In this document: positions 12,215 to 62,694 of the stretch, piece by piece
Layout: each line of letters starts with the position of its first letter
Numbering within the stretch: the first letter of the stretch is position 1
Assembly: GCF_902506535.1 (NCBI RefSeq)
Contig: NZ_LR733824.1
Span: forward strand, 558,001 to 622,000
Length of the DNA: 64,000 nucleotides
Source of the DNA: Pseudomonas sp. 8Z
Lineage (GTDB): Bacteria; Pseudomonadota; Gammaproteobacteria; Pseudomonadales; Pseudomonadaceae
Reading direction: 5' to 3'
Program-made: the position numbers and the translations under genes
The notes under the pieces: generated by a model
Seen by the model: the letters and a program-made list of their open reading frames with translations, nothing else
What the model was told of the DNA's origin: nothing
The model's database searches: none

Positions 12215-12661
12215 TCAGTAGTTCATTTCATCGTCCGGGTAGACGTCCGGCTGCGGCTGTTGGCGCGCAGGCTGCTGCCCATTCTGGGCTTGCGAAGACG
12301 CGGTCAGGGTCACGGACTCGATACGATGCGGCAGTATCCCGACGCGGTTGGCCTGGATCTTCAGCGCTTCGTACTCTTCGCCATCCTTCTCCCAGCTATC
12401 CATCACCACACGGCCTGAGACAGTCACGCGCATGCCTTTCTGGAACAGGCGCGAGTAGGCCTCAGCATCCTTATGCCAATAGTCGATGTTCATCCAGAAC
12501 CCGCCCTTGTCTTCATAGCCACCTGCGGCTTGCGGCACCGAGTTGTCGAAGTAGACGTTGAGACGCAGCAGGCGACGAGGCTCTTTGTTGCCGTTGGGGA
12601 ACTCCTTGAACTCCGGCTTGGAGCCGATGTTGCCTTCCCAGTTTTGTATGGACGTACCCAT
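12215..12661 (-). CDS. ssb: Single-stranded DNA-binding protein of the ICE
   Basis: A 148-residue OB-fold protein from ATG 12661, preceded by GAGGAA; the longer open frame upstream to 12910 overlaps the rha gene and is discarded. The body has IGSKPEFKEFPNGNKEPRRL, FWMNIDYWHKDAEAYSRLF and MRVTVSGRVVMDSW, the usual SSB-type strands. The C-terminal tail is Gln/Pro-rich and ends DVYPDDEMNY, an acidic tail lacking the canonical terminal DDDIPF. It protects single-stranded ICE DNA during transfer and replication. Next to PFL_4669 and DUF3158 genes, as in related ICEs. Confidence 0.86.
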   Translation of the reverse strand: MGTSIQNWEGNIGSKPEFKEFPNGNKEPRRLLRLNVYFDNSVPQAAGGYEDKGGFWMNIDYWHKDAEAYSRLFQKGMRVTVSGRVVMDSWEKDGEEYEALKIQANRVGILPHRIESVTLTASSQAQNGQQPARQQPQPDVYPDDEMNY

Positions 12662-12671
12662 AGCGTGTTCC

Positions 12672-13499
12672 TCAGTGAGTGGATTTATTGGTGAATGGGT
12701 TGTGAGTAGCGCGGCTGGCGACGTAGCCCAGCAGGTCACGGGTCTGGCGAGATGTTTCGGCGAGCTTGTTGGCCATGTGGCTCTTGAAGACCTCGCTGGC
12801 CAGCTTCTCGACACCACTGTCGTAGAGCGAGTTGAAGAGCAGTTCGGCGTCGTGGGCGGAGCGGAGAAGGCCATAGAGCAGGTCTTTAGCGATGGAGCTG
12901 CCGGCGACACCGGGCAGGGATTTGGCTGCCGCGCCTTCGCCGATGATCTGCCCCTGCAGGAAGGTGATCGCCTGTTCCATCTGCTCGGGGGTGGCGTGGT
13001 CCAGCGATTCCAGCGCGAGGTAGTTCTGCACCACCTGCTCGGTGCTTGGCCGGGGCGGAAGCCCCAGCGTACGATCGCGCATCAGTTCGAGGGTCTTCAG
13101 GGCGAACCGAAGCAGATGCTTGTGGCTCAGGATCTCCGGCTGCTCGATCAGCACCTGCTCCATCTTGTTGAAAGCAATGATGTACGCCTCCTTCCACTTC
13201 GCGGCTTCCTTTCCGGTGAACCCCATGCAGAGGAAGGTGAATCCATCGCGGGTCATACGGAATGCCTGGTCTTTCCGGCTCCTGCCCATGCCCAGATCAA
13301 CGTCGATTTGTATGGGCGCAAAATTGCGCTCATGGAACTCGGGCGAACAATCCAGGTTGCGGATTGCGCGCAGGACGTCCTTGTGCTGTTTCCCGAAATG
13401 CTTGGCCACATCAAGGCTGGTTGTAGTCGGCTTGCCATCAATGATCTCAACGGAAACCTTGCTGTTCTCGTTGCTGGTGTTCAGTGCGGTAGTGCTCAT
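12672..13499 (-). CDS. Rha-family phage regulatory protein homologue
   Basis: A 275-residue protein. The N-terminal 110 residues match the pRha domain: VAKHFGKQHKDVLRAIRNLDC, HERNFAP, then FRMTRDGFTFLCMGFTGKEAAKWKEAYI. Rha proteins act in temperate phage regulation. The C-terminal 160 residues are helical and unassigned. It lies 10 bp upstream of ssb and 14 bp downstream of the DUF3158 gene, in one operon. A regulatory role in ICE control is likely but not shown. Confidence 0.82.
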   Translation of the reverse strand: MSTTALNTSNENSKVSVEIIDGKPTTTSLDVAKHFGKQHKDVLRAIRNLDCSPEFHERNFAPIQIDVDLGMGRSRKDQAFRMTRDGFTFLCMGFTGKEAAKWKEAYIIAFNKMEQVLIEQPEILSHKHLLRFALKTLELMRDRTLGLPPRPSTEQVVQNYLALESLDHATPEQMEQAITFLQGQIIGEGAAAKSLPGVAGSSIAKDLLYGLLRSAHDAELLFNSLYDSGVEKLASEVFKSHMANKLAETSRQTRDLLGYVASRATHNPFTNKSTH

Positions 13500-13513
13500 G
13501 CTGAATACCTCGG

Positions 13514-14062
13514 TTATTGGTGTTGCTGTTGGTTGGTGATCTGCTGCAGCCGGCTACTGATTTCGGCCTGGGCCTGGCCCATCTTTTCGGCGCACTCGGC
13601 GGCCTGTTTGCCGATGGAGTGGATCAGGCTGATCTGCATGTTGAGGGTGATGCGCTGCAGCTCCAGGGCGTGAAGATCCTGCAGCATCGATATCGGTGTT
13701 CTGGCTTGGCCGATCATCTCGGCCCAAACGCCCACGCCCATCTTCCGAGTGGCGACGTGCTGCCAGCGGAGAAAGGTGGTTCCGGCTTGGGTGTTCTGCT
13801 CGATCAAACGGACGGCCAACAGAGTGAACGGGGGGCGACGGACCTGGGCCAGCACTTCCTGGGCAAGCTCCTTCAAACCCACCTCCAGTGCTCGGCATTG
13901 CTCCACAAACTGGTCCAGTTCCCCCTTACCTTTAAAAGGCTTTAAAAGGCCTTTTAGTGAGGCACTCTGTTGCAGCCCCTGGAAGGCACTCTGTTGCAGA
14001 GGCTGGAAGACAGTCTGTTGCAGTGAGCCCGTGGTGGAGTTCTTCTGCCCCATGATGGTCAC
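13514..14062 (-). CDS. DUF3158 family ICE protein
   Basis: A 182-residue protein with ASLKGLLKPFKGKGELDQF, the middle LLAVRLIEQNTQAGTTFLRW and MGVGVWAEMI, typical of the DUF3158 family found in PFGI-1-type elements next to PFL_4669. The first 40 residues contain a threefold LQQ-x-x-F/S repeat (SLQQTVFQPLQQSAFQGLQQ). Function unknown. Start overlaps the PFL_4669 stop by 4 bp; MGQKNS, 9 bp further in, is an alternative start. Confidence 0.8.
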   Translation of the reverse strand: MTIMGQKNSTTGSLQQTVFQPLQQSAFQGLQQSASLKGLLKPFKGKGELDQFVEQCRALEVGLKELAQEVLAQVRRPPFTLLAVRLIEQNTQAGTTFLRWQHVATRKMGVGVWAEMIGQARTPISMLQDLHALELQRITLNMQISLIHSIGKQAAECAEKMGQAQAEISSRLQQITNQQQHQ

Positions 14063-14790
14063 TCCTCGTCGGCGTCGCGGGTGTCGGTGAAGGGCTCAGG
14101 CGTCAGTTCCTGCTGGCCCCGGGTGATCGGAGGCGCGAAGTTGGAGCGGCGAGTGCCTTCCAGGATGTCCTGGGGAATGTCCCCGTGGCGCTCGTACATC
14201 TTGCGAGCTGCTTCAGCCTTCGCGTTGTTAGCGGCAAAGTCGTCGCGTGCAGCACCCGAGTAACGATAGTGCTGGGCCAGCCCGAAGAGTTTGCGCAGGA
14301 CTGCGGCACCCTCATCGATCCATAGCTCCATGTCGCGTCGGCCGATGAGGCCGACGTGCTGTGCCAGCAGAATGCGGCGAACGATCTCGTCATAGGAGGA
14401 GAGCAGGTAGACGGCCTTGAACCCGAGAGGGTTGGAGATGAACAGCGGCATGCTGACCGGCTGGACCGAGAGGTTGTTGCTGATGGTGATGGCTGCGGGG
14501 AGGCAGGCCATCACGTCGTCCAGGCGCTCATCGAGAGCCTTCAGTGCTTCATCCGACTGGGAGACTTTCTCTTCGACCAGGATCATCCACCAGTCTGAGT
14601 AGGGGTCGTCTTGGGTCGCGCCGCGGGACATGCGGTTGATGAGGGAGCAGAAGCCGGACAGACCAATGATCCCAGGCTTGGTGTCGGTCTTGGGCCGCCC
14701 CATCCAGATGCGGGCAGCGTGATGCGTGTGGAGGGTGAGCTTCACATCGCTCCGTAGGGAGCCGATGTTGAGCCGGTAGTTATCAACCAT
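14059..14790 (-). CDS. PFL_4669 family integrating conjugative element protein
   Basis: A 243-residue backbone protein of PFGI-1-class ICEs. Recognisable parts are the N-terminal LRSDVKLTLHTHHAARIW-x-GR, GIIGLSGFCSLINRM, ADP-free central SNNLSVQPVSMPLFIS and the C-terminal YSGAARDDFAANNAKA. No enzymatic motif. First gene of the operon running to ssb; the hairpin array lies directly upstream. Function unknown, presumed to act in ICE DNA maintenance because of its ssb/Rha/topoisomerase neighbours. Confidence 0.85.
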   Translation of the reverse strand: MVDNYRLNIGSLRSDVKLTLHTHHAARIWMGRPKTDTKPGIIGLSGFCSLINRMSRGATQDDPYSDWWMILVEEKVSQSDEALKALDERLDDVMACLPAAITISNNLSVQPVSMPLFISNPLGFKAVYLLSSYDEIVRRILLAQHVGLIGRRDMELWIDEGAAVLRKLFGLAQHYRYSGAARDDFAANNAKAEAARKMYERHGDIPQDILEGTRRSNFAPPITRGQQELTPEPFTDTRDADEE

Positions 14791-14930: not shown

Positions 14931-15972
14931 GCTGCTGGCAGATCCTTGCTGGAGTGGTTCCCGGGGAACCACTCAGCAGTTGGCCGGTACCGCTGGCTGG
15001 ATCTGGCTGGAGCTATTCCAGTGGAATAGCTGAGCAGTTGGCCGGTGTCGCCGGTTGGATCTGGCTGGAGTGGTTCCAGTGGAACCACTCGGCAGTTGGT
15101 CGGTGCCGCAGGCTGACCCTGACCGGGGTGTTGCCAGTGGCAACACTCAGTAGTTGACCGGCGCCGCCGGCTGACCCTGACCGGGGTGTTGCCAGTGGCA
15201 GCACTCAGTAGTTGACCGGTGCCGCCGGCTGACCCTGACCGGGGTGTTGCCCGGGGCAACACTCAGCAGTTGGTCGGCGCCGCTGTCTGGATCTGGCTCT
15301 GGGTGTTGCTGGCCGCAACACTCAGCAGTTGGCCGGTGTCGCAGGCTGACCCTGGGGTGTTGCCCGGGGCAACACTCAGCAGTTGGCCGGTGTCGCAGGC
15401 TGACCCTGACCGGGGTGTTGCCCGGGGCAACACTCAGCAGTTGGTCGGTGCCGCAGGCTGACCCTGACCGGGGTGTTGCCCGGGGCAACACTCAGCAGTT
15501 GGTCGGCGCCGCTGTCTGGATCTGGCTCTGGGTGTTGCTGGCCGCAACACTCAGCAGTTGGCCGGTGTCGCAGGCTGACCCTGACCGGGGTGTTGCCCGG
15601 GGCAACACTCAGCAGTTGGTCGGCGCCGCAGGCTGACCCTGACCGGGGTGTTGCCCGGGGCAACACTCAGCAGTTGGCCGGTGTCGCAGGCTGACCCTGA
15701 CCGGGGTGTTGCCCGGGGCAACACTCAGCAGTTGGTCGGTGCCGCAGGCTGACCCTGACCGGGGTGTTGCCCGGGGCAACACTCAGCAGTTGGTCGGCGC
15801 CGCTGTCTGGATCTGGCTCTGGGTGTTGCTGGCCGCAACACTCAGCAGTTGGCCGGTGTCGCAGGCTGACCCTGACCGGGGTGATGCCCGTGGCACCACC
15901 CTGTGCCTATGCCCCGGGCATAGCGCGGTGCTGCTGGCAGATCCTTGCTGGAGTGGTGCGGGCCGCACCACT
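14931..15972. repeat. Array of about 19 covarying hairpins, mostly 58-bp period
   Basis: Units begin at 14953, 15011, 15069, 15128, 15186, 15244, 15303, 15357, 15414, 15473, 15532, 15590, 15648, 15706, 15764, 15823, 15881, 15907 and 15952. Each has a short palindrome followed by a constant flank (CACTCAGCAGTTGG then YCGGTG/CGCC). Arms change together: AGTGGTTCC/GGAACCACT, AGCTATTCC/GGAATAGCT, GTGTTGCC/GGCAACAC, GTGTTGC/GCAACAC and AGTGGTGCG/CGCACCACT; one unit has a G-T pair (GGCAGCAC). Loops are CGG, AGT or TGGCC. The first and last units share the 28-bp lead-in starting GCTGCTGGCAGATCC (14931, 15930). The 58-59 bp period is not a multiple of three, so the region is not coding. The whole interval 14791-16052 holds no other feature. 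Confidence 0.9.
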
Positions 15973-16052
15973 CTGGTACTGCTTGGCCCCGGTGATTCCA
16001 GGTCAATCGGTTCGTGATAGGTTCTCGCTGAATTGGTCATGTTGGAGAGGTT

Positions 16053-16169
16053 ATGAGAAAGCTAACGTCGTACCTGGGGCTGCTGCTGGTCATTTTTTTC
16101 ATTGTGTACTTGTTGGTTTCCGGCCCGTTGAGCACTCCCATTGGAGTCGTTAAACACTACTTTTTCTAA
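16053..16169 (+). CDS. 38-residue hydrophobic membrane peptide
   Basis: ATG at 16053 is preceded by GGAGAGG at 5 nt. The peptide MRKLTSYLGLLLVIFF continues IVYLLVSG and ends VVKHYFF: a positively charged N-terminus, one 18-20 residue membrane segment and an aromatic tail. It starts 81 bp after the last hairpin of the array and in the same reading direction. The frame lies antisense over the 3' end of the membrane-protein gene 16062-16640, in which the antisense codons give a low-complexity Asn/Gln tail. It might be a small membrane toxin or regulator; no family recognised. Confidence 0.5.
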   Translation: MRKLTSYLGLLLVIFFIVYLLVSGPLSTPIGVVKHYFF

Positions 16170-16640
16170 TAGGCGAAATAGCGCCAGACAGGCACTCAGT
16201 AAACTCCAGAAAAGCAGTCCGAGAGAGGCAATCAGTGCCGCATCGGGAAGCGGAAGACGGCTACCATCTCGTGCGGTAATGCGCTCAAGTTCGTCCGAGA
16301 CTGGGCTGGCGAGCAGCCAGGCTCCCAGAATCCAAAATGCGATTGAGCTGACGAGCAGGCCGATGAGCCCACGACGAGAAGTCATTACCTCATCTCGGTG
16401 TAGCTTGGCGGTCCAGGCCGTGCAGAGCGAGGAGCAGAGCAAGGTGTAGATCAGCGTGACGTTGGTGCTGGCCCACATCAGCCAGTACCAGGGCTCCTGA
16501 CGCAATTGCCCCCAGTGAACCAAGGCCATAGCCCCAAGGAGGCAAAGGGGTAATGGAATGGCTACGGTCTTGATCATCATGCAGGGTAAAACCTGTCGGA
16601 TCGAGAAGCGGATGTTGCAACCTGACTGTGCGTTTTTCAT
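16062..16640 (-). CDS. Hypothetical four-segment inner-membrane protein
   Basis: A 192-residue protein with membrane segments near residues 24-42 (VAIPLPLCLLGAMAL), 52-75 (WLMWASTNVTLIYTLLC), 93-112 (GLIGLLVSSIAFWILGAWLL) and 135-158 (ALIASLGLLFWSLLSACLAL). The last 35 residues are low-complexity Asn/Gln/Ser and overlap the plus-strand small peptide gene. AGGA precedes the start by 9 nt. It follows the STY4528-type gene by 24 bp and is probably the last gene of the parB-replication operon. No family recognised. Confidence 0.6.
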   Translation of the reverse strand: MKNAQSGCNIRFSIRQVLPCMMIKTVAIPLPLCLLGAMALVHWGQLRQEPWYWLMWASTNVTLIYTLLCSSLCTAWTAKLHRDEVMTSRRGLIGLLVSSIAFWILGAWLLASPVSDELERITARDGSRLPLPDAALIASLGLLFWSLLSACLALFRLLEKVVFNDSNGSAQRAGNQQVHNEKNDQQQPQVRR

Positions 16641-16664: not shown

Positions 16665-18008
16665 CTATTGGGGGGCGTCAGGCAGTGTTTTGCTGGCTTG
16701 GTTGGCGCTCCGGGGGCTCAAAATGTGCTGCATGGCCATCAGTTGCTCACGGGCCGTGCGCACGTTCTCGGTGGATCGCGGTGGTTGTGGCCCCGGTACC
16801 CGTTCCGAGATGGCCGCGCCTGGAGCTGTGCCATTTCCAACTGGGGTTTGTGGATTAGGCGAAGACGTGGGCGGCGGGGACTCGGGTCGCCAGTCCGCGT
16901 TGAAATCGCCCTGGATTGCTCGTTGCACGCAGCTCAACAGGTAGGCCAGCGGGTTGCGTACTCCGCCAGAGGCACACCGATGCAGCCACTGCTCGATGAC
17001 GGCTGCCCTGAGTTCTATCGGCACACGCTGCATCGAGGCATGGGCCTTCATTTTTTGCTCCGACGGCATCTGCTCAAGTGCGATCAACCATCGAGCCATC
17101 GTGTCCTGCTCAGGTCTGTCCACAGGTACAGAGCTTTTACATACAGCTTTGTGTGTATTTGTATACGTACTATATGAGTTCGGATTCCGAACTAAGGCCG
17201 AACTCTGTGACTTTTGGCTGAGTTCGGAATCCGAACTCAGCGGAAGAGCCCTCTGCTCCGCTGGTTTTTCACTGAGTTCGGATTCCGAACTCAGTGACGA
17301 CTGAGTGTCAATTGGCTGAGTTCGGATTCCGAACTCAGGTGCTGGTAGTGCTGCCAGATTGCTTTCCAGGGCCCACTGTTGGCTGTTCAGGCGATCTTCA
17401 ATCGCCTCAATACGAGAGGGGAGTCGACGACCGACGTCGTGGTCACTGGCGAACTCGCGCCAAGTGATCTCCGCGATTTCTCGAATGGCACGGTTGGGGT
17501 GATCCATCGATTGGCCAAGCAACTGCATGTAGTCGCGATCGAACTCCAGGGCCTCGGCGGGGCTGACCGGCTCATCGTGAAGCAAGTAGACGTTGCCTTG
17601 AACCTGGCCGCTAAGGTCGTTGCGGACACGACGGCCTAGGCTGAGCCAGCGAGTCAGGCGAAGGACCGTCAATGCCTTGGCGACAGTCTCCCGGGAAGCT
17701 GACTTACCCGGGTGCATACCCAGGTAAGGACGCAACTGTTCATAGGTCGGGAAGGCGGTGATGCCATCCTCGTTGACCAAGAGGCGAAACACTTGCCAAG
17801 CGTTGCGCTCCAGAGGGGTTAACCTATCGTCCAGCAGCAGGCGGCGGGGCACCGTCTCATGAGGGTTCCCGCTGAAGATGATTCCTGAATAGGTATTAGG
17901 GGTGGCGGTACCGGCTGCAGCTTGTTCTTTCTTTTGAAGCAAATGGGCCTCGAGGTGTCCCGAGGCCGAATCCAAGAGTGTTGCTATTGGGAACCGAGCA
18001 AGCCTCAT
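16665..18008 (-). CDS. STY4528 family pathogenicity-island replication protein
   Basis: A 447-residue protein. The conserved N-terminal part (GIIFSGNPHETVPRRLLLD, RLTPLERNAWQVFRLL, FPTYEQLRPYL, SRETVAKALTVLRLTRWL) is a winged-helix-like region of the STY4528 family. The centre (residues about 220-285) is low-complexity Ser/Glu and is encoded by four 21-bp DNA palindromes at 17175-17337. A second conserved helical region (AVIEQWLHRCASGGVRNPLAYLLSCVQRA) follows, then a Pro-rich tail. Proposed to act in ICE replication. Start overlaps the DUF2857 stop by 4 bp. Confidence 0.83.
   Translation of the reverse strand: MRLARFPIATLLDSASGHLEAHLLQKKEQAAAGTATPNTYSGIIFSGNPHETVPRRLLLDDRLTPLERNAWQVFRLLVNEDGITAFPTYEQLRPYLGMHPGKSASRETVAKALTVLRLTRWLSLGRRVRNDLSGQVQGNVYLLHDEPVSPAEALEFDRDYMQLLGQSMDHPNRAIREIAEITWREFASDHDVGRRLPSRIEAIEDRLNSQQWALESNLAALPAPEFGIRTQPIDTQSSLSSESELSEKPAEQRALPLSSDSELSQKSQSSALVRNPNSYSTYTNTHKAVCKSSVPVDRPEQDTMARWLIALEQMPSEQKMKAHASMQRVPIELRAAVIEQWLHRCASGGVRNPLAYLLSCVQRAIQGDFNADWRPESPPPTSSPNPQTPVGNGTAPGAAISERVPGPQPPRSTENVRTAREQLMAMQHILSPRSANQASKTLPDAPQ
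17175..17337. repeat. Four 21-bp palindromes inside the replication-protein gene
   Basis: Copies at 17175-17195 (one end mismatch), 17219-17239, 17273-17293 and 17317-17337 read TGAGTTCGGA, a central T or A, then TCCGAACTCA. Start-to-start spacing is 44, 54 and 44 bp. A half-site TCCGAACTCA lies at 18714-18723, upstream of the DUF2857 start. Could be iterons of a replication origin or binding sites for an autoregulator. Confidence 0.82.
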
Positions 18009-18694
18009 AGGTCTGGTCTACCTTCCGCAGACGCCAATGGAAGCTGTTGCCGAGAGACCAAATGTAGTTTCCTGGGCTTCCAGGACTTGTCTTTGGTCGG
18101 CGGATAGAAGCCTTCACCTATCCAGGTGTGGATCCTGTTCCAGATGATGGCCAGGCTGAGGCTCTCTGCACTGTCGTCCGATTCCTGAGGCGCATTGAGT
18201 TCCTCTGCAACTAGCATGGCGATATCGAGCATGGCCATGCTGTCTTCAACCTCGACCTGGTGCTCCTCCATGAGGTGAGTCCATCGGTGCCAGAGTAGGG
18301 CGTCCAGTTCCTCACTGAACTCTCTCCAGCGACCGCGCCGTACTCGCACGCCCATCATCAGTCGCTGCAGCGCGACATCCTGCGGTGAGAGCCCGAAGAA
18401 CTGTTGCAGCATGGTGGTTGTAGCCCCCAGTCGCAGAGCCCGCTCGATCATGCGCATTTCTTCCTCTGAGCGCTCGGCACCTGTGAGCAGCTTTTTCACC
18501 ATCTCGGTGTCGATGGTGACCTGGCACCACGACACGGGAGTGTTGAGCAGTAGGCTCAGCACAGAAGGCTGTTGGAGCTGGGCCAGTATTTCAGGCTCAA
18601 GCCCCATCTCCGTACACCGCCGTAGCTGGCCGTTGCGCATGTGGTTCAACACCTGCGACAGAACTGCCTCGTTGATCGGTGACTTGGACATCAT
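18005..18694 (-). CDS. DUF2857 family ICE protein
   Basis: A 229-residue protein from ATG 18694, preceded by GGGGAGGGA at about 5 nt; an in-frame TTG at 18709 is less likely. The N-terminus INEAVLSQVLNHMRNGQLRRC followed by a helical region (LGLSPQDVALQRLMMGV) matches the DUF2857 family of ICE and pathogenicity islands. No catalytic motif is visible. It is placed between parB and the STY4528-type gene, the usual order in this ICE class, and probably works in replication or partition. Its ribosome site lies 4-13 bp from a half-site of the palindrome found in the next gene. Confidence 0.8.
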   Translation of the reverse strand: MMSKSPINEAVLSQVLNHMRNGQLRRCTEMGLEPEILAQLQQPSVLSLLLNTPVSWCQVTIDTEMVKKLLTGAERSEEEMRMIERALRLGATTTMLQQFFGLSPQDVALQRLMMGVRVRRGRWREFSEELDALLWHRWTHLMEEHQVEVEDSMAMLDIAMLVAEELNAPQESDDSAESLSLAIIWNRIHTWIGEGFYPPTKDKSWKPRKLHLVSRQQLPLASAEGRPDL

Positions 18695-18720
18695 TGATTC
18701 CCTCCCCAAAAAGTCCGAAC

Positions 18721-20463
18721 TCAGCTGGCGGTCTGTGCCGCCGTGCTCTGGATTGCCTGAATCTCCAAGTCGATCAACCGCCGTGCTAGCCGGATGATGC
18801 GGAACAGCTTGACCAGGGCTCCGTCGCTGAGGCGACCGGAGTCATCTGGAACCTGGTCCTTGGCCAGAGGCTGGCCGAGAAGGATCTGGCTGAGTCCTGC
18901 AGCGAATTGGAATTCCCCGATGGCATCCATCTGCTCGGGCTGCTGCTTGAGCATCTTCAGGGCAATGCCCATGGTTCCACTCAGGGACTGGAGCAGGGTC
19001 AGGGTGTGTTGGGCTGTTGCAGTTACTTCAACGTCCACATCTGGGTGGCGATAGCTGAAGCCAATGCCACCCTCAACCTCAACGAATTCGCCGGGAGCGT
19101 TGACCGATTCAGCGATCTCGCGCGCCATGGCCGCGATGTGCTGGCGGAGCTCTGCCGGACTGTCGATTTCGCGCTCGATGTACCAGAGGTCGGAGACCGG
19201 GTGCAGTCCTCCTGCCTGGACAGGGACGGCGACAAGGACGTTGGCGTTGAAGTCAGGGAGCGTTTCTCCGTCAAGGGCAGCCAGTCGCTGTTTCATCTCG
19301 GTGACACGCGGTGTCGTCGAAACTGGGCTGGCAACGTGGCCCTCCAGGCGAGACTGGCGCTCCTGCGGACTCATTTGCTCGGGAGGAGGGGGAGCAACCT
19401 TGCGCGGCTGGCGAGCTGCAGGAGGTGGCGGCGCTGGCTGCTGATTATTGTCTTGGGCGTTCTGCTGTGGATCTGTGTTGACCGGAACAGTGGTCGTCGT
19501 TGGTGGCGGTGTCTCTGTTTCCAGCAGGTGTGTGGTGGGCGCAGCCTGAGGTAGGTTTACCACGGGCGTGGTGCGACGAAGCTGCTCCTGGTTCTGGGTG
19601 ATCTCCAGGAGGATTGCCTCATAGCCCATGCCCAATGGGTCTTTCATCTGTGCGATCAGCTCGTCTTGGAAGCGCTGGAACAAGAACTCCTCGGCGTCAC
19701 CTTCGAACTGGGCCAGCACATCCTGGAACAGCATCTCGAAGTCGATGCTGTTGTCCTTGTTGTGGAGCTCCCAGCATTGCAAAGATGTTTTTCTGAGCGA
19801 CAGAATCTTCTCGACCTGATGCTTTCCTAGGCCTGAGTAGAGCACGCTAGGGATCGCCGGCAGGAGATAGCGGATGGCGTCTTGCATCCGGCTGATATGG
19901 GAGTGCGAGACGGGATAGCCATCAGCGGAAAGACGCCGAGCTAGCTCTCGCTGGGAGATTGCTACCCCAGCCTCTTGCTCGTACAGCGCTTTCGCCTTGT
20001 CGATGCCCACGGCTCGCTCGATGAACATGAGCTGACCCTGCAGATCATTCTCAGCCAAGTGGCCGGTGAGGGCGATGATCTCGCCTCGGGCCTGATCCCA
20101 GGGGCGGAACAAGCAGTTGAAGCGGAAGTACCGCTCATCTCCTGTTTCACGATAGAGCTCGTTCAGGATCGCAAGGCGAGTGTTGCCGCCGTTGCGGATC
20201 CGGTACTTGTCCTCGCCTGGTCGACGAGTTACAGGGGGCGGGGCATCCAGGCCCCGCTGGCGAATCGACTCCTTGATCTCCGCGTACTTCGGGTTGCGGG
20301 TTGTCCGAGGGTTGGAGTCGTAGGGGAGCACATCGTCCAGGGTCAGAACCACCGGTGTATCAACGATCGGATCGCTGAAGCGTTCGGCAGTTGGCGAGGT
20401 TGGCTGGAACCCGGGGCGCAGCAGCTGCCCTTTCAGGTCGGCCAAGGAAGGTTTGGACGACAT
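18721..20463 (-). CDS. parB: ParB family protein of the ICE
   Basis: A 580-residue PFGI-1-class ParB. ParB/Srx-like nuclease fold in the first 130 residues (VLTLDDVLPYDSNPRTTRN, YAEIKESIRQRGLDAPP, YRIRNGGNTRLAILNEL). A HTH region follows (ISQRELARRLSADGYPVSHSHISRMQDA). The centre is Pro/Gln-rich, and a C-terminal domain is specific to ICE versions. It probably binds a partition site and cooperates with the ParA encoded at 28433-29293, although the two genes are 8 kb apart. Length is roughly twice that of chromosomal ParB. Start lies 2 bp after the Arc-like gene. Confidence 0.9.
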   Translation of the reverse strand: MSSKPSLADLKGQLLRPGFQPTSPTAERFSDPIVDTPVVLTLDDVLPYDSNPRTTRNPKYAEIKESIRQRGLDAPPPVTRRPGEDKYRIRNGGNTRLAILNELYRETGDERYFRFNCLFRPWDQARGEIIALTGHLAENDLQGQLMFIERAVGIDKAKALYEQEAGVAISQRELARRLSADGYPVSHSHISRMQDAIRYLLPAIPSVLYSGLGKHQVEKILSLRKTSLQCWELHNKDNSIDFEMLFQDVLAQFEGDAEEFLFQRFQDELIAQMKDPLGMGYEAILLEITQNQEQLRRTTPVVNLPQAAPTTHLLETETPPPTTTTVPVNTDPQQNAQDNNQQPAPPPPAARQPRKVAPPPPEQMSPQERQSRLEGHVASPVSTTPRVTEMKQRLAALDGETLPDFNANVLVAVPVQAGGLHPVSDLWYIEREIDSPAELRQHIAAMAREIAESVNAPGEFVEVEGGIGFSYRHPDVDVEVTATAQHTLTLLQSLSGTMGIALKMLKQQPEQMDAIGEFQFAAGLSQILLGQPLAKDQVPDDSGRLSDGALVKLFRIIRLARRLIDLEIQAIQSTAAQTAS

Positions 20464-28432: not shown

Positions 28433-29293
28433 TCAACGCCCTGCCTTGGCTATCTGGGCAACTTTCTCCTCGGTCATTGCCTCGAAACGGTCACGCCACT
28501 GGGGAAACACGTCGATGGCCAACTGGCGAATGATGCTCAGGGCCGATGGGGACTGCCGGTTGGAAGGCTGGCGATATTCCAGTCGGTGTGCGGGAATGCC
28601 CTGGGAGGCTGCGCTTCGGAAGACGACAGCAGCAGGAATGGTGCTGTCGAGCACCGAGATATCCTGGTTGTCCTGGAAAATCTCGCGGACGGTTTCGAAG
28701 ATCATTTGTGCATCGGTGGTCTGATCTAGGCAATTGACCACGATCTTGACGGGAGGAATCTTCAGGCCCAGACGTCCGTAAGCCTTCAGGCCATCCAGCA
28801 TCTGCATGGTGCCGCGACTGAACTCGCGAGCGGTGAGCATGTTTGGTGGGAGCGGGGAGATGGCCACGTCGGAGGCGAGAACGACCATCTCTAGCATGGC
28901 CGAACGAGCACCCTGGGTGTCGATGATCACCAGGTCGAAGTGATCTTCGAAAGCCGGCATTAGGTTTGCCAGGCGCAATCGTCCGTCGGGTGCCTGCAGA
29001 AGTAGGTTAATCAGCTGGTTGTTAATGTCATTGGAGATGACCAACGACAGGTTCGCGATGGAGGTCGCTGAAATAATTCGAGTAAAATCAGTGATGTTGA
29101 ATGCGAGGAGGTCGTAAATACCTCCCTGTGCTTCTTCGATGATGGGGTAGTAGGAAGAAAGAGAAGGTTGGACCGGGTCTAGGTCTATCAGGAGGGTTCG
29201 CAAACCTGAATCGGCTGAGAAAGCGCCTAGGTTTGCGGAAGTAGTGGTTTTGCCGGTACCGCCTTTGGTCGATACGACCGATGCGATGATCAT
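28433..29293 (-). CDS. parA: ParA/Soj-type partition ATPase of the ICE
   Basis: 286 residues with the deviant Walker A KGGTGKTTTSANLGAFSA (residues 10-16 core), LLIDLDPVQPSLSSYY as Walker A', and LVIIDTQGARSAMLEM as Walker B. It is the first gene inside the attachment site, as soj is in PAPI-1, where it stabilises the excised form. It probably partners with the ParB at 18721-20463. A perfect 10-bp inverted repeat lies 9 bp upstream of the ATG. Confidence 0.92.
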   Translation of the reverse strand: MIIASVVSTKGGTGKTTTSANLGAFSADSGLRTLLIDLDPVQPSLSSYYPIIEEAQGGIYDLLAFNITDFTRIISATSIANLSLVISNDINNQLINLLLQAPDGRLRLANLMPAFEDHFDLVIIDTQGARSAMLEMVVLASDVAISPLPPNMLTAREFSRGTMQMLDGLKAYGRLGLKIPPVKIVVNCLDQTTDAQMIFETVREIFQDNQDISVLDSTIPAAVVFRSAASQGIPAHRLEYRQPSNRQSPSALSIIRQLAIDVFPQWRDRFEAMTEEKVAQIAKAGR

Positions 29294-35287: not shown

Positions 35288-36093
35288 GTGTTGATACCGG
35301 ACTGGCAAGGTTGTTTGTTTTTTGGTGTCCTGGACGCCGCTGCGGTGTATTCAGAGATTCCGGGTTTCGCCCCCTCGGGCGACTCACTTTTCTTTGAGCT
35401 GCGCAAAGAAAAGTAAGCAAAAGAAAGCGCACCCCATCATCCGGCCCCGGCTGCGCCGGGGTTCGTTCGCTCCATCATTGCTCCGAGGGCACGCCGCGAA
35501 GGGCCATCCCTGGCCCATCGCGGCTCTCGCGGCATCCATGCCGCTCAACCCTCTACACAACGATTCCACTCACCCTCCTGAAGGGGACATTCCCGCGCCT
35601 GAACGAACTGGCATTCCAAGGTACGCCCGGCGTGTTCTGGTAGCTGTGACGTTGCGATGTGGCCGTCGGGTTAAACCAAAACTTTCATTCGCATAGTTTC
35701 AGTTTGCCGGCCTTCAGCCAGCATCCCGGTCAGCCCTACGGCTGACCCATGTTCAAGCACTCCGCACTACTTCTGGGTTACCTCGGGTTCAGGCGCGTGC
35801 AGAGCCCGCCCAGGAGGGCGAACGGAATCGTCGTGGAAGAGGTCGAGCGACATGGATGTCGCGAGAGCCACGATGGGCCATGGATGGCCCACCGTGGCGG
35901 GCCTCTGGAACGACGATGGAGTGAGCGAACCCTCGCGCAGCGAGGGCCGGATGAAAGGGCGGAGGTTTTGGTGACTTTTGCCCGCAAAAGTTACTCGCCC
36001 GGAAGGGCGAAACCAAAAACATCAACAAAAACGCGGAAACTCGGAACAGGCGCCTAAAGACAACACACAACCTTGCCAGTCCGGTATCAACAC
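35288..36093. repeat. About 806-bp imperfect inverted-repeat element
   Basis: The ends are 27-bp perfect inverted repeats beginning GTGTTGATACCGGAC (35288-35314) and its complement (36067-36093). Inside, two arms of about 300 bp are similar when one is inverted: CCGGCCC-x-GCTGCGC, CATCCCTGGCCCATCGCGGC versus CATCCATGGCCCATCGTGGC. The interval 35241-36134 contains no credible gene; the open frames seen within are by-products of GC-rich repeats. This resembles the long intergenic repeats known from several Pseudomonas genomes. Confidence 0.85.
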
Positions 36094-50660: not shown

Positions 50661-51543
50661 GTGTTCCCCGCGCCAGCGGGGATGAACCGCGCAGCCAGTG
50701 GTCAGGTTCTAACTGGTCGACGTGTTCCCCGCGCCAGCGGGGATGAACCGTCAATAAGCTGCTGAGCCTCGCCGGTAATGTTGTGTTCCCCGCGCCAGCG
50801 GGGATGAACCGTGCTCAGCCGCCTCAAGCGCGACTTCGACTTCCGTGTTCCCCGCGCCAGCGGGGATGAACCGGCTGACTTTCGGAGCCTCTGGCTCAGT
50901 GGACAGTGTTCCCCGCGCCAGCGGGGATGAACCGAAATGCAGTCGCTGTACACTGATGGGAAGCACGTGTTCCCCGCGCCAGCGGGGATGAACCGTAGGC
51001 CCGACATCTACCGGATCCGCTGGCCTTGTGTTCCCCGCGCCAGCGGGGATGAACCGTCACCCATTCCGAGCGTGGCAGGCATTAGCAGGTGTTCCCCGCG
51101 CCAGCGGGGATGAACCGCAGATGATCGAAATACGCTTTACATATAGGGCGTGTTCCCCGCGCCAGCGGGGATGAACCGTGTGGAACGCCTGCAAAGGCCT
51201 CGATGTGCTGGTGTTCCCCGCGCCAGCGGGGATGAACCGCCATGGTTTTTGAGGCTTGGTGGCAGGATGTTGTGTTCCCCGCGCCAGCGGGGATGAACCG
51301 TACGGGGCAAAAACCTAGTTGCGCCACTAATGGTGTTCCCCGCGCCAGCGGGGATGAACCGGGCGTGCTGGGCCAGACCATGACCGCCGACGAGTGTTCC
51401 CCGCGCCAGCGGGGATGAACCGTCCTGCGCGGCCAGCTCGATAGCGGCGCTGAAGTGTTCCCCGCTCAGCGGGGATGAACCGCCTTCGCGCAGATCGTGC
51501 TTCAGGTACTTGAAGTGTTCCCCGCGCCAGCGGGGATGGAGCG
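50661..51543 (+). CRISPR. Type I-E CRISPR array 1, 15 repeats, 14 spacers
   Basis: 29-nt repeats (start GTGTTCCCCGCGCCAGCGGG, then GATGAACCG) at 50661, 50722, 50783, 50845, 50906, 50967, 51028, 51089, 51150, 51211, 51272, 51333, 51394, 51455 and 51515. Spacers are 32 nt except one of 33 (50812-50844). The repeat at 51455 is 28 nt (CGCTCAGC centre) and the last one ends GGATGGAGCG, both signs of the leader-distal end. The repeat resembles the E. coli I-E repeat and gives a crRNA 5' handle ATGAACCG. No spacer matches another place in the window by eye. Confidence 0.98.
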
Positions 51544-52560: not shown

Positions 52561-55236
52561 ATGAAAGGATTCGCCGATCTCAGCGACCAGGCCCGCCGCC
52601 TCTGGGCCAAGAGTGGTGAAGGCTACGGCCATGGTGTGCTGGCGCATTTGCTGGACGTGGCTGCGGTGGCCGAGCGGATGCTGGCTCATGAGCCTCCGAG
52701 CACACTGGATTGGGCCGCTCAGGCGTTGGGCCTGGGGCGTGAGCATGTTGCGCGTTGGGTTGCCTGCCTGGTAGGCCTGCATGACTTCGGCAAGGCCATC
52801 CCCGGCTTTCAGGACAAGTGGTTCGAAGGGCGACAGGCCGGTGAGGCGCTTGGGCTGGCCTTTCCCGACCGTGCCCTGGGTGTTACCGACCATGCTTGCG
52901 CCAGTGCAGCGTTGCTCTGGGAGCACTTGCCTGGCCAGGGTATCGGCCATCTGTTGTGGATTCGCCATGTGTTGCAGGCCATCAGCGCCCACCATGGCTA
53001 CAACTTCAACCAAAGCGAATTCAATCGGGCCAAACCGGCGTTCGAGCCACCGGCCTGGAGCGAGGCGCGTCGGCAGATATTCGCGGCTTACTGGGGCGTA
53101 TTGGCGCCACAGGGCACTCCGCAGACCGAGGCCTTGTCGCAGCCAGCGGTGCAATGGCTGGCAGGCTTGACCAGCGTGGCTGACTGGATTGGCTCCAACC
53201 CCGAATGGTTTCCCTTGGGCGAGCGCCACGCGCTGCTGGCCGAGCATCATGTTGATGCCTGCTTACGCGCGGATCAGGCATTGCAGCAGATCGGTTGGCG
53301 AGTCTTTCAGCCTTTGTTGAAAGACTCGTCCACAGCGGATCATCTGATCGCACAGATCGTCCAGCGCCCGAAGCTGACGGCGCGACCTTTGCAGCGCGAG
53401 GCTGATCGCTTGCTCGGTGGTGTACAAGGCCCGGCACTGCTGCTGGTCGAGGCGCCGATGGGTGAGGGCAAGACCGAGCTGGCCTTTCTCGCTCACCTGC
53501 GGCTGCAGGCGGCCAACCAACATCGTGGCCTGTATGTCGCGCTGCCGACGCAGGCCACAGGCAATGCATTGTTCAACCGTGCTTTGACCTTTCTCCATGG
53601 CTTCTCGGGCGATACGGCGCTGGACGTGCAACTGGTACATGGTGGCGCCGGGCTTAACGAACAGGTGCTGGCGCTACGGGGCATTTATGGTGCCGAGGGC
53701 GAGAGCGTGTCCTCGTCGGCCTGGTTCTCTCAGCGCCGCCGCCCGCTGCTATCGCCTTATGGCGTTGGCACTGTGGATCAGGCGCTGTTCGCCACACTCA
53801 ACGTCAAACACCATTTCGTGCGCTTGTGGGGTTTGAGCAACCGCGTGGTGGTGCTCGATGAAGTACATGCCTACGACACCTACACCAGCGGCCTGATCGA
53901 AGCCTTGCTGCGTTGGCTCAAGGCGATGGGCAGTTCGGTAGTGTTGATGAGCGCTACCTTGCCGGCGCCGCGTCGCGATGCCTTGCTACGTGCCTGGGGC
54001 GTTGCCCCGGAGAGCGCGCCCGATCTGAGCTATCCGCGTCTGTTGTTGGCCGATGATCGTGGCCTCAAGGGTGGCACCTGTGCTTCGCGGCCACTGCCGC
54101 CGATTCACCTGCAGGCCGTGGCGGAAGATGTCGACAGCCTGATCGCCAAGGCCTGTGTGCTGGTGCAGCAAGGTGGTTGCGGCGCGCTGATCGTCAATAC
54201 CGTGGATCGCGCGCAAAGCCTTTACCTAAAACTCAAGGCTGAACTGGGCGATGAGGTTTCGCTGCTGCTCTTTCATGCGCGCTTCCCGGCCAATCAGCGC
54301 AGCGAGCAGGAAAAGGCCGTGCTGGCGCGTTTTGGTGAGGGTGGCGCGCGCCCGGCCAGGGCTTTGCTGATCGCCACCCAGGTGGCCGAGCAGAGCCTGG
54401 ATATCGACTTCGACTTCATGCTTACTGACCTAGCGCCGGTGGATCTGATTCTGCAGCGCGCCGGTCGTCTGCATCGCCACCAGCGCGAGCGCCCCGAGGC
54501 ACATCGGCAGGCGACCTTGTATGTGGCGGGGCTGGCGCCCGAAGCCTTGCCCGATCTCAAGAGCACGGCCTGGGAATACGTCTATGAGCCCTACATCCTT
54601 GGGCGCACCTGGGCGTTGCTGTCGCGTGAGCAGGAATTACACCTGCCACAGGACATCGACCGGCTGGTGCAGGCGGTGTATGACTGCGAGGATTTACCGG
54701 CGGATCTGGCCGAGGCGGATCGTGCCTTTATCGAGGATGAGGCCTACGGCAGTTACTTGGGCAAACGGCAGACCGAGCGCATGATGGCCCGCAACGTCGC
54801 CATCGACCCCGAGGCCGAACCGCAGAACGCCTACACCCAGAAAAATCGCGGTTATGAAGAGGGCGAGGAAGGCTTGGGGCTGCCCAATTACACCCGCCTC
54901 GGTGACGACTCGGTAACGCTGATACCCGTGCATGAAGTGCCCGGTGGCTGGAGCCTGACACCAGGTGGCGAGGCCTTCGACCCCGATCAGCCGCTGCCCA
55001 ACGCGCTGGCCAAACAGCTCCATGCCCGCCAGCTAAAAACCTCACGCACCGCTTTGGTCAAGCATACGCAGGCGTTGGAGTCGCGGCGGTCGTTCAATGA
55101 GCATCCGTTGCTGCGTCATCTCAAGCCGCTGGTACTGATCGATGGCTGCCTGCAGATCGGGCGTTTGACGGTGCGTCTGGAGGATGAATTGGGCTTGGTC
55201 TATCAGCGCGGCGCAGCTAGTGGCTTGCCCGAATGA
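52561..55236 (+). CDS. cas3: CRISPR-associated helicase-nuclease Cas3 (type I-E)
   Basis: 891 residues from ATG 52561 with AGGAG upstream. HD nuclease domain: HGVLAHLLDVAAVAERML, LHDFGKAIPGFQDKW (His-Asp near 75), ISAHHGYNF. SF2 helicase: GEGKTELAFLAHL near 301, VVVLDEVHAYDTYTS near 432, LMSATLPAPRRDA near 463, AEQSLDIDFDFMLTDLAPVD, and ILQRAGRLHRHQR near 632. It is recruited by Cascade at target DNA, nicks and degrades it 3' to 5'. All key motifs intact. Own promoter is likely because a toxin-antitoxin unit separates it from cse1. Confidence 0.97.
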   Translation: MKGFADLSDQARRLWAKSGEGYGHGVLAHLLDVAAVAERMLAHEPPSTLDWAAQALGLGREHVARWVACLVGLHDFGKAIPGFQDKWFEGRQAGEALGLAFPDRALGVTDHACASAALLWEHLPGQGIGHLLWIRHVLQAISAHHGYNFNQSEFNRAKPAFEPPAWSEARRQIFAAYWGVLAPQGTPQTEALSQPAVQWLAGLTSVADWIGSNPEWFPLGERHALLAEHHVDACLRADQALQQIGWRVFQPLLKDSSTADHLIAQIVQRPKLTARPLQREADRLLGGVQGPALLLVEAPMGEGKTELAFLAHLRLQAANQHRGLYVALPTQATGNALFNRALTFLHGFSGDTALDVQLVHGGAGLNEQVLALRGIYGAEGESVSSSAWFSQRRRPLLSPYGVGTVDQALFATLNVKHHFVRLWGLSNRVVVLDEVHAYDTYTSGLIEALLRWLKAMGSSVVLMSATLPAPRRDALLRAWGVAPESAPDLSYPRLLLADDRGLKGGTCASRPLPPIHLQAVAEDVDSLIAKACVLVQQGGCGALIVNTVDRAQSLYLKLKAELGDEVSLLLFHARFPANQRSEQEKAVLARFGEGGARPARALLIATQVAEQSLDIDFDFMLTDLAPVDLILQRAGRLHRHQRERPEAHRQATLYVAGLAPEALPDLKSTAWEYVYEPYILGRTWALLSREQELHLPQDIDRLVQAVYDCEDLPADLAEADRAFIEDEAYGSYLGKRQTERMMARNVAIDPEAEPQNAYTQKNRGYEEGEEGLGLPNYTRLGDDSVTLIPVHEVPGGWSLTPGGEAFDPDQPLPNALAKQLHARQLKTSRTALVKHTQALESRRSFNEHPLLRHLKPLVLIDGCLQIGRLTVRLEDELGLVYQRGAASGLPE

Positions 55237-55250
55237 TGATCAGGCGTATC

Positions 55251-55270
55251 ATGTAGGCATGTTTCTACAT
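55251..55270 (+). promoter_or_regulatory. Inverted-repeat operator before the Phd/VapC pair
   Basis: ATGTAG, 8-base centre, CTACAT, lying 13 bp before the antitoxin ATG and 14 bp after the cas3 stop. Position and symmetry suggest an autoregulated operator. Confidence 0.5.
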
Positions 55271-55283
55271 TTCTAGGTGCGCC

Positions 55284-55535
55284 ATGCAAACCATCCTTAC
55301 CAGTCGCGAGTTCAATCAGGACACCAGTGGCGCCAAGCGCGCTGCTAATCGGGGGCCGGTCTTTATCACGGATCGTGGCAAGCTGGCCCATGTGCTGCTG
55401 AGCATCGAGCAATACCAGCGTCTGACCGGCGGCCCCGGCAGCATCATCGATCTGCTGGCCATGCCGACAGTCGAGGACATTGAGTTCGAGGCGCCGCGTG
55501 CGCAAGGTTTGTCGCGCCCGGCGGACTTGAGCTGA
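55284..55535 (+). CDS. Phd/YefM-family antitoxin
   Basis: 83 residues (MQTILTSREFNQDTSGAKRA). The Phd-like N-terminal fold is visible: SREFNQDTSGAKRAANRGPV, FITDRGKLAHVLLSIEQY. The C-terminus is toxin-binding and probably disordered (VEDIEFEAPRAQGLSRPADL). Stop overlaps the toxin start as TGATG. Located between cas3 and cse1. Confidence 0.86.
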   Translation: MQTILTSREFNQDTSGAKRAANRGPVFITDRGKLAHVLLSIEQYQRLTGGPGSIIDLLAMPTVEDIEFEAPRAQGLSRPADLS

Positions 55536-55960
55536 TGTTCGTCCTCGACACCAATGTCGTGTCCGAACTGCGCAAGGCCAAGAGTGGCAAGGCCGACCCG
55601 CGCCTGGCGGCCTGGGCTCAGCGTCTGGTGCCGGGGCAGTTGTTTATTTCCGCTATCACCGTGCTTGAGCTGGAAACCGGCGTTTTGCTGGTGGAAAGAC
55701 GCGACCCGCAGCAGGGCAGCCTGCTGCGCTCCTGGCTCGATGGCCACGTATTACCTGGCTTCGCCGGTCGCATCCTGCCGGTCGACGCCGCCGTGGCGCA
55801 GCGCTGCGCGCAATTGCACGTTCCCGACCCTCGGGCCGAACGCGACGCGCTGATCGCGGCCACGGCATTGGTGCATGGCATGACGGTCGCCACACGCAAC
55901 GTGGCGGACTTTCTGCCCACGGGCGTGGCACTGGTCAACCCCTGGGAGTTTGCCGGTTGA
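55535..55960 (+). CDS. vapC: VapC-type PIN-domain ribonuclease toxin
   Basis: 141 residues. PIN acidic residues are all present: Asp5 in MFVLDTNVVSELRKA, Glu45 in SAITVLELETGVLLVERR, Asp104 in RAERDALIAATAL, Asp125 in ATRNVADFLPTG. VapC-type toxins cleave tRNA or rRNA. Partnered with the Phd-like antitoxin. The unit sits inside the cas gene cluster between cas3 and cse1. Confidence 0.9.
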   Translation: MFVLDTNVVSELRKAKSGKADPRLAAWAQRLVPGQLFISAITVLELETGVLLVERRDPQQGSLLRSWLDGHVLPGFAGRILPVDAAVAQRCAQLHVPDPRAERDALIAATALVHGMTVATRNVADFLPTGVALVNPWEFAG

Positions 55961-55981
55961 ATTGATTTGACTCATGCCGTA

Positions 55982-55993
55982 GTGGCACTTTGT
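55982..55993 (+). promoter_or_regulatory. Shared cas promoter motif, copy 2 (cse1)
   Basis: GTGGCACTTTGT, 73 bp before the cse1 start; identical to 52515-52526. Downstream TTTACT and TTAGATT could be weak -35/-10 boxes. Marks an internal promoter for Cascade-cas1-cas2. Confidence 0.5.
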
Positions 55994-56066
55994 CTGCTTT
56001 ACTGCAGGCCTGTTAGATTCAGGGAGAGGGATATGGAATCGTGGCAACAGGGAATGGGGGATAGGC

Positions 56067-57608
56067 ATGAGTGAGTCTTTCAATCTGCTCGACGAGCCAT
56101 GGCTGGCGGTACGGATGCACGATGGGCAGGTGCGTGAGCTGGGCTTGTTGGCGCTCTTCGAACAGGCCGGCGAGATCAGTGCCCTGGCGGAAACCTCGCC
56201 GCCGGGCCTGATCGCTCAATACCGGCTGTTGCTGGCTATTACCCACCGCGCCATCAGCCAGGCGCAAGGGCGCTGGACGGATGCCGAGCGTGTGCGCTGG
56301 TATCAGAACGGGCTGCCGCTGGCCGCCATTCGCGACTATCTGCAGCATTGGCGCGAGCGCTTTTGGTTGTTCCATCCGCAGTACCCCTTCATGCAGGTGG
56401 CGGCACTGGCTGACGCCGACGAAACCCGCGACAAGCTCAAACCCTGGACGCAAATCTCCCTGGCCAGCGCCAACGGCAATGCGCCGGTGGTGTTCGATCA
56501 CTCCTGTGACCTGGCGCCGCGCAGCATCGCAGCCGCCGATGCGCTGCGTACCTTGCTGGGCTTTCTGCAATTCACGCCCGGCGGCCTGGTCAAGACGCTG
56601 CGCGACTCCGACAAGGCAGGCGCCTTGGCCAATACGGCAGCGGTAATGCCGGTGGGCGATTCACTGGGGCAAAGCTTGTGCCTGGCTCTGCACCCGCCGA
56701 CTCAAACAGGGCATGAAGACCTGCCCGCCTGGGAGCGCAACGCGCCGAGCATTGCCCAGTTGCGTGGCGACCCTGAGGTGGCGACTGGCCCCAATGATCG
56801 CTACACCCGGCAAAGCCGAGCAGTTTTGCTATTGGCGGACGATGAACAGCGTGTGCAGTGGATTCGCTTTGCCGCTGGTTTGGCTCTGGGCGACGACGTG
56901 CAGGCCCCCGACCCAATGGCCAGCTACCGGGCCGGCAGCAATAGCCTGGTGCGCCTGAGCTTCAGCGAAGGCCGTGCCTTGTGGCGCGACTTACCCGCGT
57001 TGTTGCCGGATGCCGAAGGCAAGACCTCGCAGCCTGCGGCGGTGCTGGAGTGGGCGGCCAATCTGCAACTTTTCCTGGGCAGCGGTGTGCAACCGTTGCT
57101 GATCGCAGGCTTGGCCAGCGATCAGGCCAAATTGCTGCGCTGGCGCTCCGAACGCATCGCACTGCCGTCCAAATTGCTGGCTTCCGCCGATCACGCCAAC
57201 GAGCTGCGCCGCTATGTGCGCGATGCCGAAGAGTTGTTTACCGCCTTGCGCAAGCTGGCCACCGGCATGCTCGCCGAAACCCTGCCCGACCCCGGCAGCA
57301 AGGACACCTGGGCTCGTGCCCGTAGCCTGATCGATGCCGGGCCAGCGGGCGCCTTGTACTTCGCCAGTGCCGAGCGCCATCTGGGCCATGCCATGGCGCT
57401 GTTGGGCAACGACGAACTGGACGAGGCCGAAGCACTCTGGCGCCAGAGCCTGCATGACGCCGCCCGTGATGCCTGGCAGGCCGTGTTGGCCGGCTTGGGC
57501 CGAGGCGCCAAAGCTCTACGTGCCGAGGCACGTCATCATTCACGTCTGCTGGGGCTGCTTGCCCCGTTGCGGGCGACTCCCACACCTGACAAGGAGGTTC
57601 GCGCATGA
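56067..57608 (+). CDS. cse1: Cascade large subunit Cse1 (Cas8e)
   Basis: 513 residues, near the E. coli length (502). Begins MSESFNLLDEPWLAVRMHDG; FNLLDEPWL is the Cse1 signature. FHPQYPFMQVAAL and HSCDLAPRSIAAADALRTLLG (key DALRTLLGF) are also typical. Cse1 recognises the PAM and recruits Cas3. Overlaps cse2 by 4 bp. Confidence 0.95.
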   Translation: MSESFNLLDEPWLAVRMHDGQVRELGLLALFEQAGEISALAETSPPGLIAQYRLLLAITHRAISQAQGRWTDAERVRWYQNGLPLAAIRDYLQHWRERFWLFHPQYPFMQVAALADADETRDKLKPWTQISLASANGNAPVVFDHSCDLAPRSIAAADALRTLLGFLQFTPGGLVKTLRDSDKAGALANTAAVMPVGDSLGQSLCLALHPPTQTGHEDLPAWERNAPSIAQLRGDPEVATGPNDRYTRQSRAVLLLADDEQRVQWIRFAAGLALGDDVQAPDPMASYRAGSNSLVRLSFSEGRALWRDLPALLPDAEGKTSQPAAVLEWAANLQLFLGSGVQPLLIAGLASDQAKLLRWRSERIALPSKLLASADHANELRRYVRDAEELFTALRKLATGMLAETLPDPGSKDTWARARSLIDAGPAGALYFASAERHLGHAMALLGNDELDEAEALWRQSLHDAARDAWQAVLAGLGRGAKALRAEARHHSRLLGLLAPLRATPTPDKEVRA

Positions 57609-58147
57609 GTGAGTTCGCGCAGAGCTTTATCGCCCATTTGCAGCGCCTGCAAGAGCGTGACCGGGGCGCCATCGCCACCTTGCGCCGCAGCCTGAGCTTC
57701 GAGCCGGGTAGCTATCCGCCGGCTTATCCCTATGTGGAGCGCTTCGTCGCGGTCGAGCGGCATGCTCAGGACGCTTCGCGCCTGGCGCTGTATCTGACGG
57801 CGGGCCTATACGCCGCTCATCCTCATCATGGTGCGCGAAGCCTGGCTGCCAGCCTTGGCGAACTGATGCGCAAGCGTGAAAGCGCCAGCATCGAGCAACG
57901 CTTCGTCGCCTTGCTCGGTGCCGATGCGGAAAACCTGGCGGTGTATCTGCGCCAGATCATCAGCCTGTTGGCCGCCGATGATCGCCCGCTGGACTACGCC
58001 GTGCTGCTGCGCGACCTGAGCGTCTGGCTCAACCCCTATATCGATGCCGAGCGCCGCGACAACGTACGCCAGCGCTGGGCGCGGGACTTCTATCGTGCGC
58101 TGGCGACGCCTGCTGCCGAATCCACCGAACAAGCTGTCAACGACTGA
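57605..58147 (+). CDS. cse2: Cascade small subunit Cse2 (Cas11e)
   Basis: 180 residues, all-helical. FIAHLQRLQERDRGAIATLR, RSLSFEPGSYPPAYPYVERF and REASIEQRFVALLGAD-like segment (SASIEQRFVALLGAD), YAVLLRDLSVWLNPYI match Cse2. Two copies form the belly of Cascade and stabilise the R-loop. 10 bp before cas7e. Confidence 0.94.
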   Translation: MSEFAQSFIAHLQRLQERDRGAIATLRRSLSFEPGSYPPAYPYVERFVAVERHAQDASRLALYLTAGLYAAHPHHGARSLAASLGELMRKRESASIEQRFVALLGADAENLAVYLRQIISLLAADDRPLDYAVLLRDLSVWLNPYIDAERRDNVRQRWARDFYRALATPAAESTEQAVND

Positions 58148-58157
58148 GAGGGACATC

Positions 58158-59300: not shown

Positions 59301-59302
59301 GC

Positions 59303-60554: not shown

Positions 60555-60579
60555 TTCTGGAGCAGAAATGGAGGGCTGC

Positions 60580-61401: not shown

Positions 61402-61403
61402 AC

Positions 61404-62694
<1,291 letters not shown>

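Follow-up and report, generated by a model that had tools for sequence, protein, structure and literature searches.

The 19 palindromes that stand in tandem at positions 14931-15973 of the DNA that we analysed (64,000 nucleotides from Pseudomonas sp. 8Z, hereafter the window) are very probably clustered dyad sites bound by BisD, the ParB-like protein of the element that carries them. Because, in approximately 80 elements, the bases of the site change in step with the predicted DNA-reading residues of BisD, we read the array as a set of BisD docking sites. Starting from direct observations of the array, of the covariation within it, of its conservation and of its coupling to BisD, we propose that this region, formerly annotated as a replication origin, may rather be a platform for loading, similar to a centromere.

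The palindromes of the array (type A, in units of approximately 58 bp, no strand assigned) are all odd, with centres running from 14963 to 15962, and 15 of the 18 centre-to-centre steps measure 58 or 59 bp (the remaining three being 54, 25 and 47 bp), in agreement with the 19 hairpins at 58-59 bp spacing of the preliminary description. The first unit, GAGTGGTTCCCGGGGAACCACTC (14952-14974), is preceded by a 28-bp lead-in from 14931 and the last, GAGTGGTGCGGGCCGCACCACTC (15951-15973), by a second copy at 15930. That these two units share the lead-in had been noted, and it occurs exactly twice. Scoring the pairing at each distance k from the dyad, we found full pairing from k1 to k9 in 13 of the 19 units. 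The unit at 15195 has a G-T pair at k6 (the one such unit previously reported), three units with a TGGCC centre have a mismatch at k2, unit 15890 is mismatched at both k1 and k6, and in unit 15915 the pairing reaches k8 only. A strict hairpin finder returned 17 hairpins in the array, compared with 0-3 per shuffled array in 20 shuffles, and a density of 0.7 per kb in the remainder of the window. The array sequence occurs once in its own genome, where a degenerate type A pattern has 12 matches in the array and nine scattered elsewhere in 4.8 Mb; this, together with the approximately three copies per element of the corresponding ICEclc-type site, does not fit a REP/MITE family, whose copies would be spread over the chromosome and accompanied by a transposase. 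The flank had been described as nearly constant, which is true inside this element, but beyond it the constancy of the spacer does not extend. Similarly, the core described as variable and self-complementary does have covarying arms, but these are set on a nearly invariant skeleton with T at k5 and mostly C at k3. Tandem Repeats Finder detected a 291-bp period inside the array, much of which is block duplication, so that the 19 units cannot be counted as independent, and for this reason covariation was tested across elements instead.

The array is flanked by the PFL_4669 and STY4528 genes, with an unnamed ORF (16062-16640) on the STY4528 side, in a module whose gene set comprises TopA, SSB, Rha, DUF3158, DUF2857 (BisC), ICE ParB (BisD), Arc, YejK, DnaB and ParA. 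It lies upstream of the gene for PFL_4669, an AcaB-like regulator (14059-14790), downstream of which a gene run spanning 12215-14062 contains the genes for DUF3158 (13514-14062) and Rha (12672-13499) and ssb (12215-12661). On its other side are the gene for a STY4528-family ‘pathogenicity island replication protein’ (16665-18008), modelled as a winged helix with a low-confidence linker, the bisC homologue (DUF2857, FlhC-like; 18005-18709) and bisD (18721-20463), which encodes the proposed binder, a 580-residue ICE ParB-family protein (TIGR03764); the ParA-family ATPase of the module is encoded at 28433-29293. All of the named genes for which coordinates are given here are on the minus strand. 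In ICEclc, BisC is the FlhC-like partner of BisD (PMC7423338). The palindromic repeats are found near the element's own parA/parB-type genes, and their sequence matches the putative specificity residues of BisD, as in a sopC-like array of ParB-type sites. The core gene order, with the same kind of array, is also present in pKLC102 (L002) and other plasmids. A search of PFGI-1-type ICEs for arrays upstream of PFL_4669, which had been recommended, was positive for pKLC102, and PFGI-1 is described in this way (PMC2647930), so that the layout is not without precedent, as had been thought, but is that named putative oriV in both elements. Further along the window, type I-E CRISPR-Cas genes (matches to Cas3, Cas8e, Cas7e and Cas1) occupy 52561-62330, with CRISPR repeat arrays on both sides of them at 50966-51482 and 62878-64000.

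To examine the distribution of the type A palindrome, we took the best 80 PFL_4669 matches in named genomes. Among the ICEs of the ICEclc/pKLC102 superfamily that we examined, it is present in nearly all, as one to three copies or as an array, and at 62 of the 76 testable loci a palindrome perfect from k1 to k8 lies 100-345 bp upstream of PFL_4669. The best-of-region score of 8/8 was reached in those 62/76 elements, but in 0/76 shuffled regions and 1/76 stretches of coding DNA inside the gene, which rules out a bias from selecting palindromes. In ICEclc-type elements, copies lie approximately 150 and 283 bp upstream of PFL_4669, with a third approximately 1.85 kb off beyond ssb, and in pKLC102-type elements the sites form arrays; the type A sites of this element and of ICEclc are GTGTTGCCCGGGGCAACAC and GAGCTATCCCCAGGGGATAGCTC respectively. 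In seven ICEclc-type genomes the site, AGCTATCCCC[A/T]GGGGATAGCT, was found approximately three times per element and almost nowhere else. As these copies occur around PFL_4669 to ssb in the genomes tested, a general BisDC promoter motif was also rejected; eight promoters are said to have a common 27-bp motif (PMC9286271), and the palindrome is absent from them in the tested genomes. A further lineage (L116-L126, L136 and L154) has one or two TGATGCC palindromes, some of which have long extra arms, those in L136 measuring 24 bp on each side. In L045, L048, L088, L098, L100, L107 and L113, stretches of approximately 1-4 kb lie between type A copies upstream of PFL_4669, with PFL_4669 at one end and STY4528 at the opposite end, so that insertions seem to concentrate at this place.

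The covariation of the arms that had been claimed for the array is real and strong, and survives both shuffled and slid controls across elements. For 53 distinct sites, one per element, paired cells amounted to 92.1% compared with 63.4% after shuffling, the covariation score was 0.721 compared with 0.202 for shuffled and 0.081-0.147 for slid sites, and on a tree of 71 elements positions k1-k8 underwent 59 two-sided changes and 13 breaks. The coupling persists within single arrays, where a set of 88 distinct units, all findable by their flanks alone, gave significant coupling at k1, k2, k4, k6, k7 and k8 (p at most 0.0004) and none at k10 or k11. Each of these results, together with the folding of single units as ssDNA at -7 to -10 kcal/mol, would also suit units that are selected as hairpins, in RNA or in the ssDNA of conjugation, rolling-circle or lagging-strand synthesis, and read by their shape, acting for instance in priming or as ssDNA promoters. 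This we consider very unlikely, as any hairpin would place position k1 in its loop, unable to pair, yet k1 is complementary in 81 of the 88 units compared with a shuffled expectation of 56.8, so that the loop is not free, and the departures from pairing (16 G-T and 14 A-C) favour neither strand; both observations point to a twofold-symmetric duplex site and argue for it over a hairpin. In addition, scanning the array for intrinsic terminators and sigma-70 promoters gave none, no T-runs follow the ICEclc-type copies of the palindrome, and Rfam yielded no match in the array, on which ground an RNA family was rejected, and one weak match in the whole window; a TwoAYGGAY RNA match stands at 35840-35904 (43.7 bits, family cut-off 43). 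As the bases of the site also follow the contact residues of the ParB-like protein, the earlier suggestion that structure in RNA or ssDNA is under selection is not supported, and of the two causes then put forward the better fit is the other, a dimeric protein of degenerate specificity.

Coupling of the arms is essentially specific to type A. As a control set outside the array we used a second class of palindromes (type B, TTCGGANTCCGAA), four of which lie inside the STY4528 gene (17179-17333, no strand assigned); in the same elements these showed no arm coupling at variable positions, with the exception of k7 in ICEclc-type elements (59/66 compared with 52.9). Type A has the same base on both arms at degenerate positions, which an additive reading of half-sites does not predict and which counts against the assignment to BisD; candidate causes are patchwork arrays, template-switch correction and a genuine requirement for half-sites that are identical. 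It is possible, although we think it unlikely, that the arms match through template-switch (quasipalindrome) correction, or through patchwork arrays under different BisD alleles, and not through selection for pairing, an explanation that covers the arm coupling only and is compatible with BisD sites. In E. coli, quasipalindromes are reported to be hotspots of template switching (PMC7202029), and the arrays of L039 and of the window mix units fitting different BisD residues. However, the coupling ends sharply past k9, where correction could lengthen the arms, the type B palindromes are almost uncoupled, and k1, which adjoins the dyad, is coupled.

The identification of BisD as the putative reader came from sorting the elements by half-site, which revealed a change in the BisD helix-turn-helix. 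The rule and its predictions were written down before 40 further regions were fetched, and they held: Arg is present at every TGATGCC locus, Ser or Ala takes its place at CTAT loci, and the CGGTCCCC locus L131 has Ser with QRSH. We also scanned, without preselection, 1,474 aligned columns of six neighbouring proteins, BisD, BisC, PFL_4669, DUF3158, SSB and STY4528, from 82 elements; the top column was BisD 172 for both k7 and k8, BisD 187 for k6, BisD 215 for k1 (H-C 41, P-A 23 and D-G 14) and BisD 216 for k2 (Q-C 63 and R-G 12), with BisD 189 ranking third for k3. BisD columns still rank 1-3 inside each of two clades. Against BisD as the reader, BisC column 135 slightly outranks BisD 186, which is second, for k4, and in the pKLC102-type clade alone an SSB column stands above BisD for k1, k2 and k6. 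Among 86 non-redundant elements, R172 accompanied G at k7 in 31 cases with one exception, a false site (L127), and other residues accompanied another k7 base in 49 cases with five exceptions (two truncated BisD rows, the mixed array L039 and the CGGTCCC pair L111/L112). Tree-independent pairs, which are few and to that extent a weak point, agreed in direction in 4.8/5 and 5.7/7 cases with none opposed (p 0.06 and 0.03). When a code derived from the first set of elements was applied to the held-out loci, 179 of 185 bases were correct, compared with 109 by the commonest base, exact-match repeats of training loci having been removed and related elements being present in both sets.

In the window, the DNA-binding region of BisD (codons 165-220) is encoded at 19804-19971 on the minus strand, as are the codons for R172 (19948-19950), S186 (19906-19908), H187 (19903-19905), R192 (19888-19890), H215 (19819-19821) and Q216 (19816-19818). 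Comparison of this region with Pfam and PDB sequences gave no useful match, nor did comparison of STY4528 or BisD with solved structures by sequence. On the basis of coevolution, each half-site would be read by a BisD dimer, with residue 172 contacting k7/k8, residue 187 contacting k6, residues 186/188/192 contacting k4 and residues 215/216 contacting k1/k2 beside the dyad. Similarly, in ParB-parS and Noc-NBS a few residues of the corresponding DNA-binding region determine half-site specificity, and swaps there diversify it (PMC7383237), although the chromosomal sites are nearly invariant, whereas the ICE code varies at seven half-site positions. Three elements (L111, L112 and L131) have a rare specificity variant, with a CGGTCCCC palindrome and QRSH in the recognition helix of BisD, and L112 retains a CTATCCCC site beyond ssb.

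In PFGI-1, the place of the array was named putative oriV, with 46-bp repeats, each enclosing an inverted repeat, and with four 23-bp palindromes in the other half (PMC2647930). Both the place and the repeats of our array agree with this description, and as STY4528 is modelled as a winged-helix protein and autonomous replication of pKLC102 has been reported (PMC7685784), the array might be a replication origin with its palindromes as iterons for STY4528. We regard this as highly improbable. Three elements (L072, L075 and L092) that lack both STY4528 and type B keep type A, BisD and BisC, so that the co-occurrence expected of an iteron set and its STY4528 initiator fails, and STY4528 columns rank below those of BisD. 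Better iteron candidates are the type B palindromes, which are invariant, 13 bp long and iteron-like, standing at 17179, 17223, 17277 and 17321 with a 44/54/44 spacing that recurs in pKLC102-type elements (ICEclc-type elements have two copies, 44 bp apart) and lying where the gene encodes a disordered linker, modelled with low confidence in STY4528. Type B is accordingly a better candidate than the array for replication or for a second regulatory site. It is less credible still that the array is the operator of PFL_4669, autoregulating its own operon. A copy of the palindrome does lie approximately 130-330 bp upstream of PFL_4669 in most elements, and the structural model of this protein resembles the transcription factor AcaB (6n8a, Z 15.6), but the strand LTLHT, its predicted ribbon, does not vary among elements whose sites differ widely, BisD columns outrank those of PFL_4669, and the region upstream of IncC acaB has no such palindrome.

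Assignment of the array to BisD sets it beside several known systems. The putative oriV of PFGI-1 and pKLC102 shares its location upstream of PFL_4669 and its direct repeats each with an inverted repeat (PMC2647930), but was predicted to be an origin, whereas here the repeats would belong to BisD and the second class of palindromes to the STY4528 gene. In ICEclc, BisD acts from ‘bisS boxes’ and its sliding has been reported (PMC13393423). The array probably corresponds to these boxes, with which it shares the BisD protein family and the module, although type B rather than type A could be bisS; the ICEclc-type site, in one to three copies, is in the window multiplied to a 19-unit array with other bases. 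Physical binding of BisD would be followed by CTP-dependent loading, spreading, promoter activation and partition, and the array together with the ParA of its module could act as a centromere during any extrachromosomal phase, a state that pKLC102 can adopt. Plasmid F carries at sopC, the site of SopB, 12 tandem 43-bp repeats with one palindrome each. The window array is similar in having tandem repeats, each with one ParB-family palindrome, near par genes, but differs in its unit of 57-59 bp and its degenerate half-sites, and BisD is also a transcription coactivator. ICEclc-type elements would thus have kept one to three sites, and pKLC102-type elements would have multiplied them into arrays as F did at sopC.

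The repeats as a predicted oriV, and BisD with bisS in ICEclc, were already known; as far as we have searched, it is new that the array is assigned to BisD and set apart from type B, and so is the residue-to-base code. We tentatively suggest, at somewhat short of an even chance, that there are many orthogonal BisD-site specificities, set by approximately seven residues against seven bases, such that related ICEs sharing a cell would not cross-load or cross-activate one another and arrays would be records of past switches in specificity. If this is true, the exact matching of the arms would mean that BisD loading needs two identical half-sites and not merely two acceptable ones. The present reading offers a testable identity for a region labelled ‘putative oriV’ since the first descriptions of pKLC102-type islands, and sets it apart from a second set of palindromes that is the better candidate for replication. 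It would also provide an almost complete code, taken from natural variation, that relates residues to bases in a ParB-family protein other than chromosomal ParB and Noc, and does so for elements by which resistance and metabolic genes pass between bacteria. If the sites decide ICE activation, the code would predict which ICEs interfere with each other.
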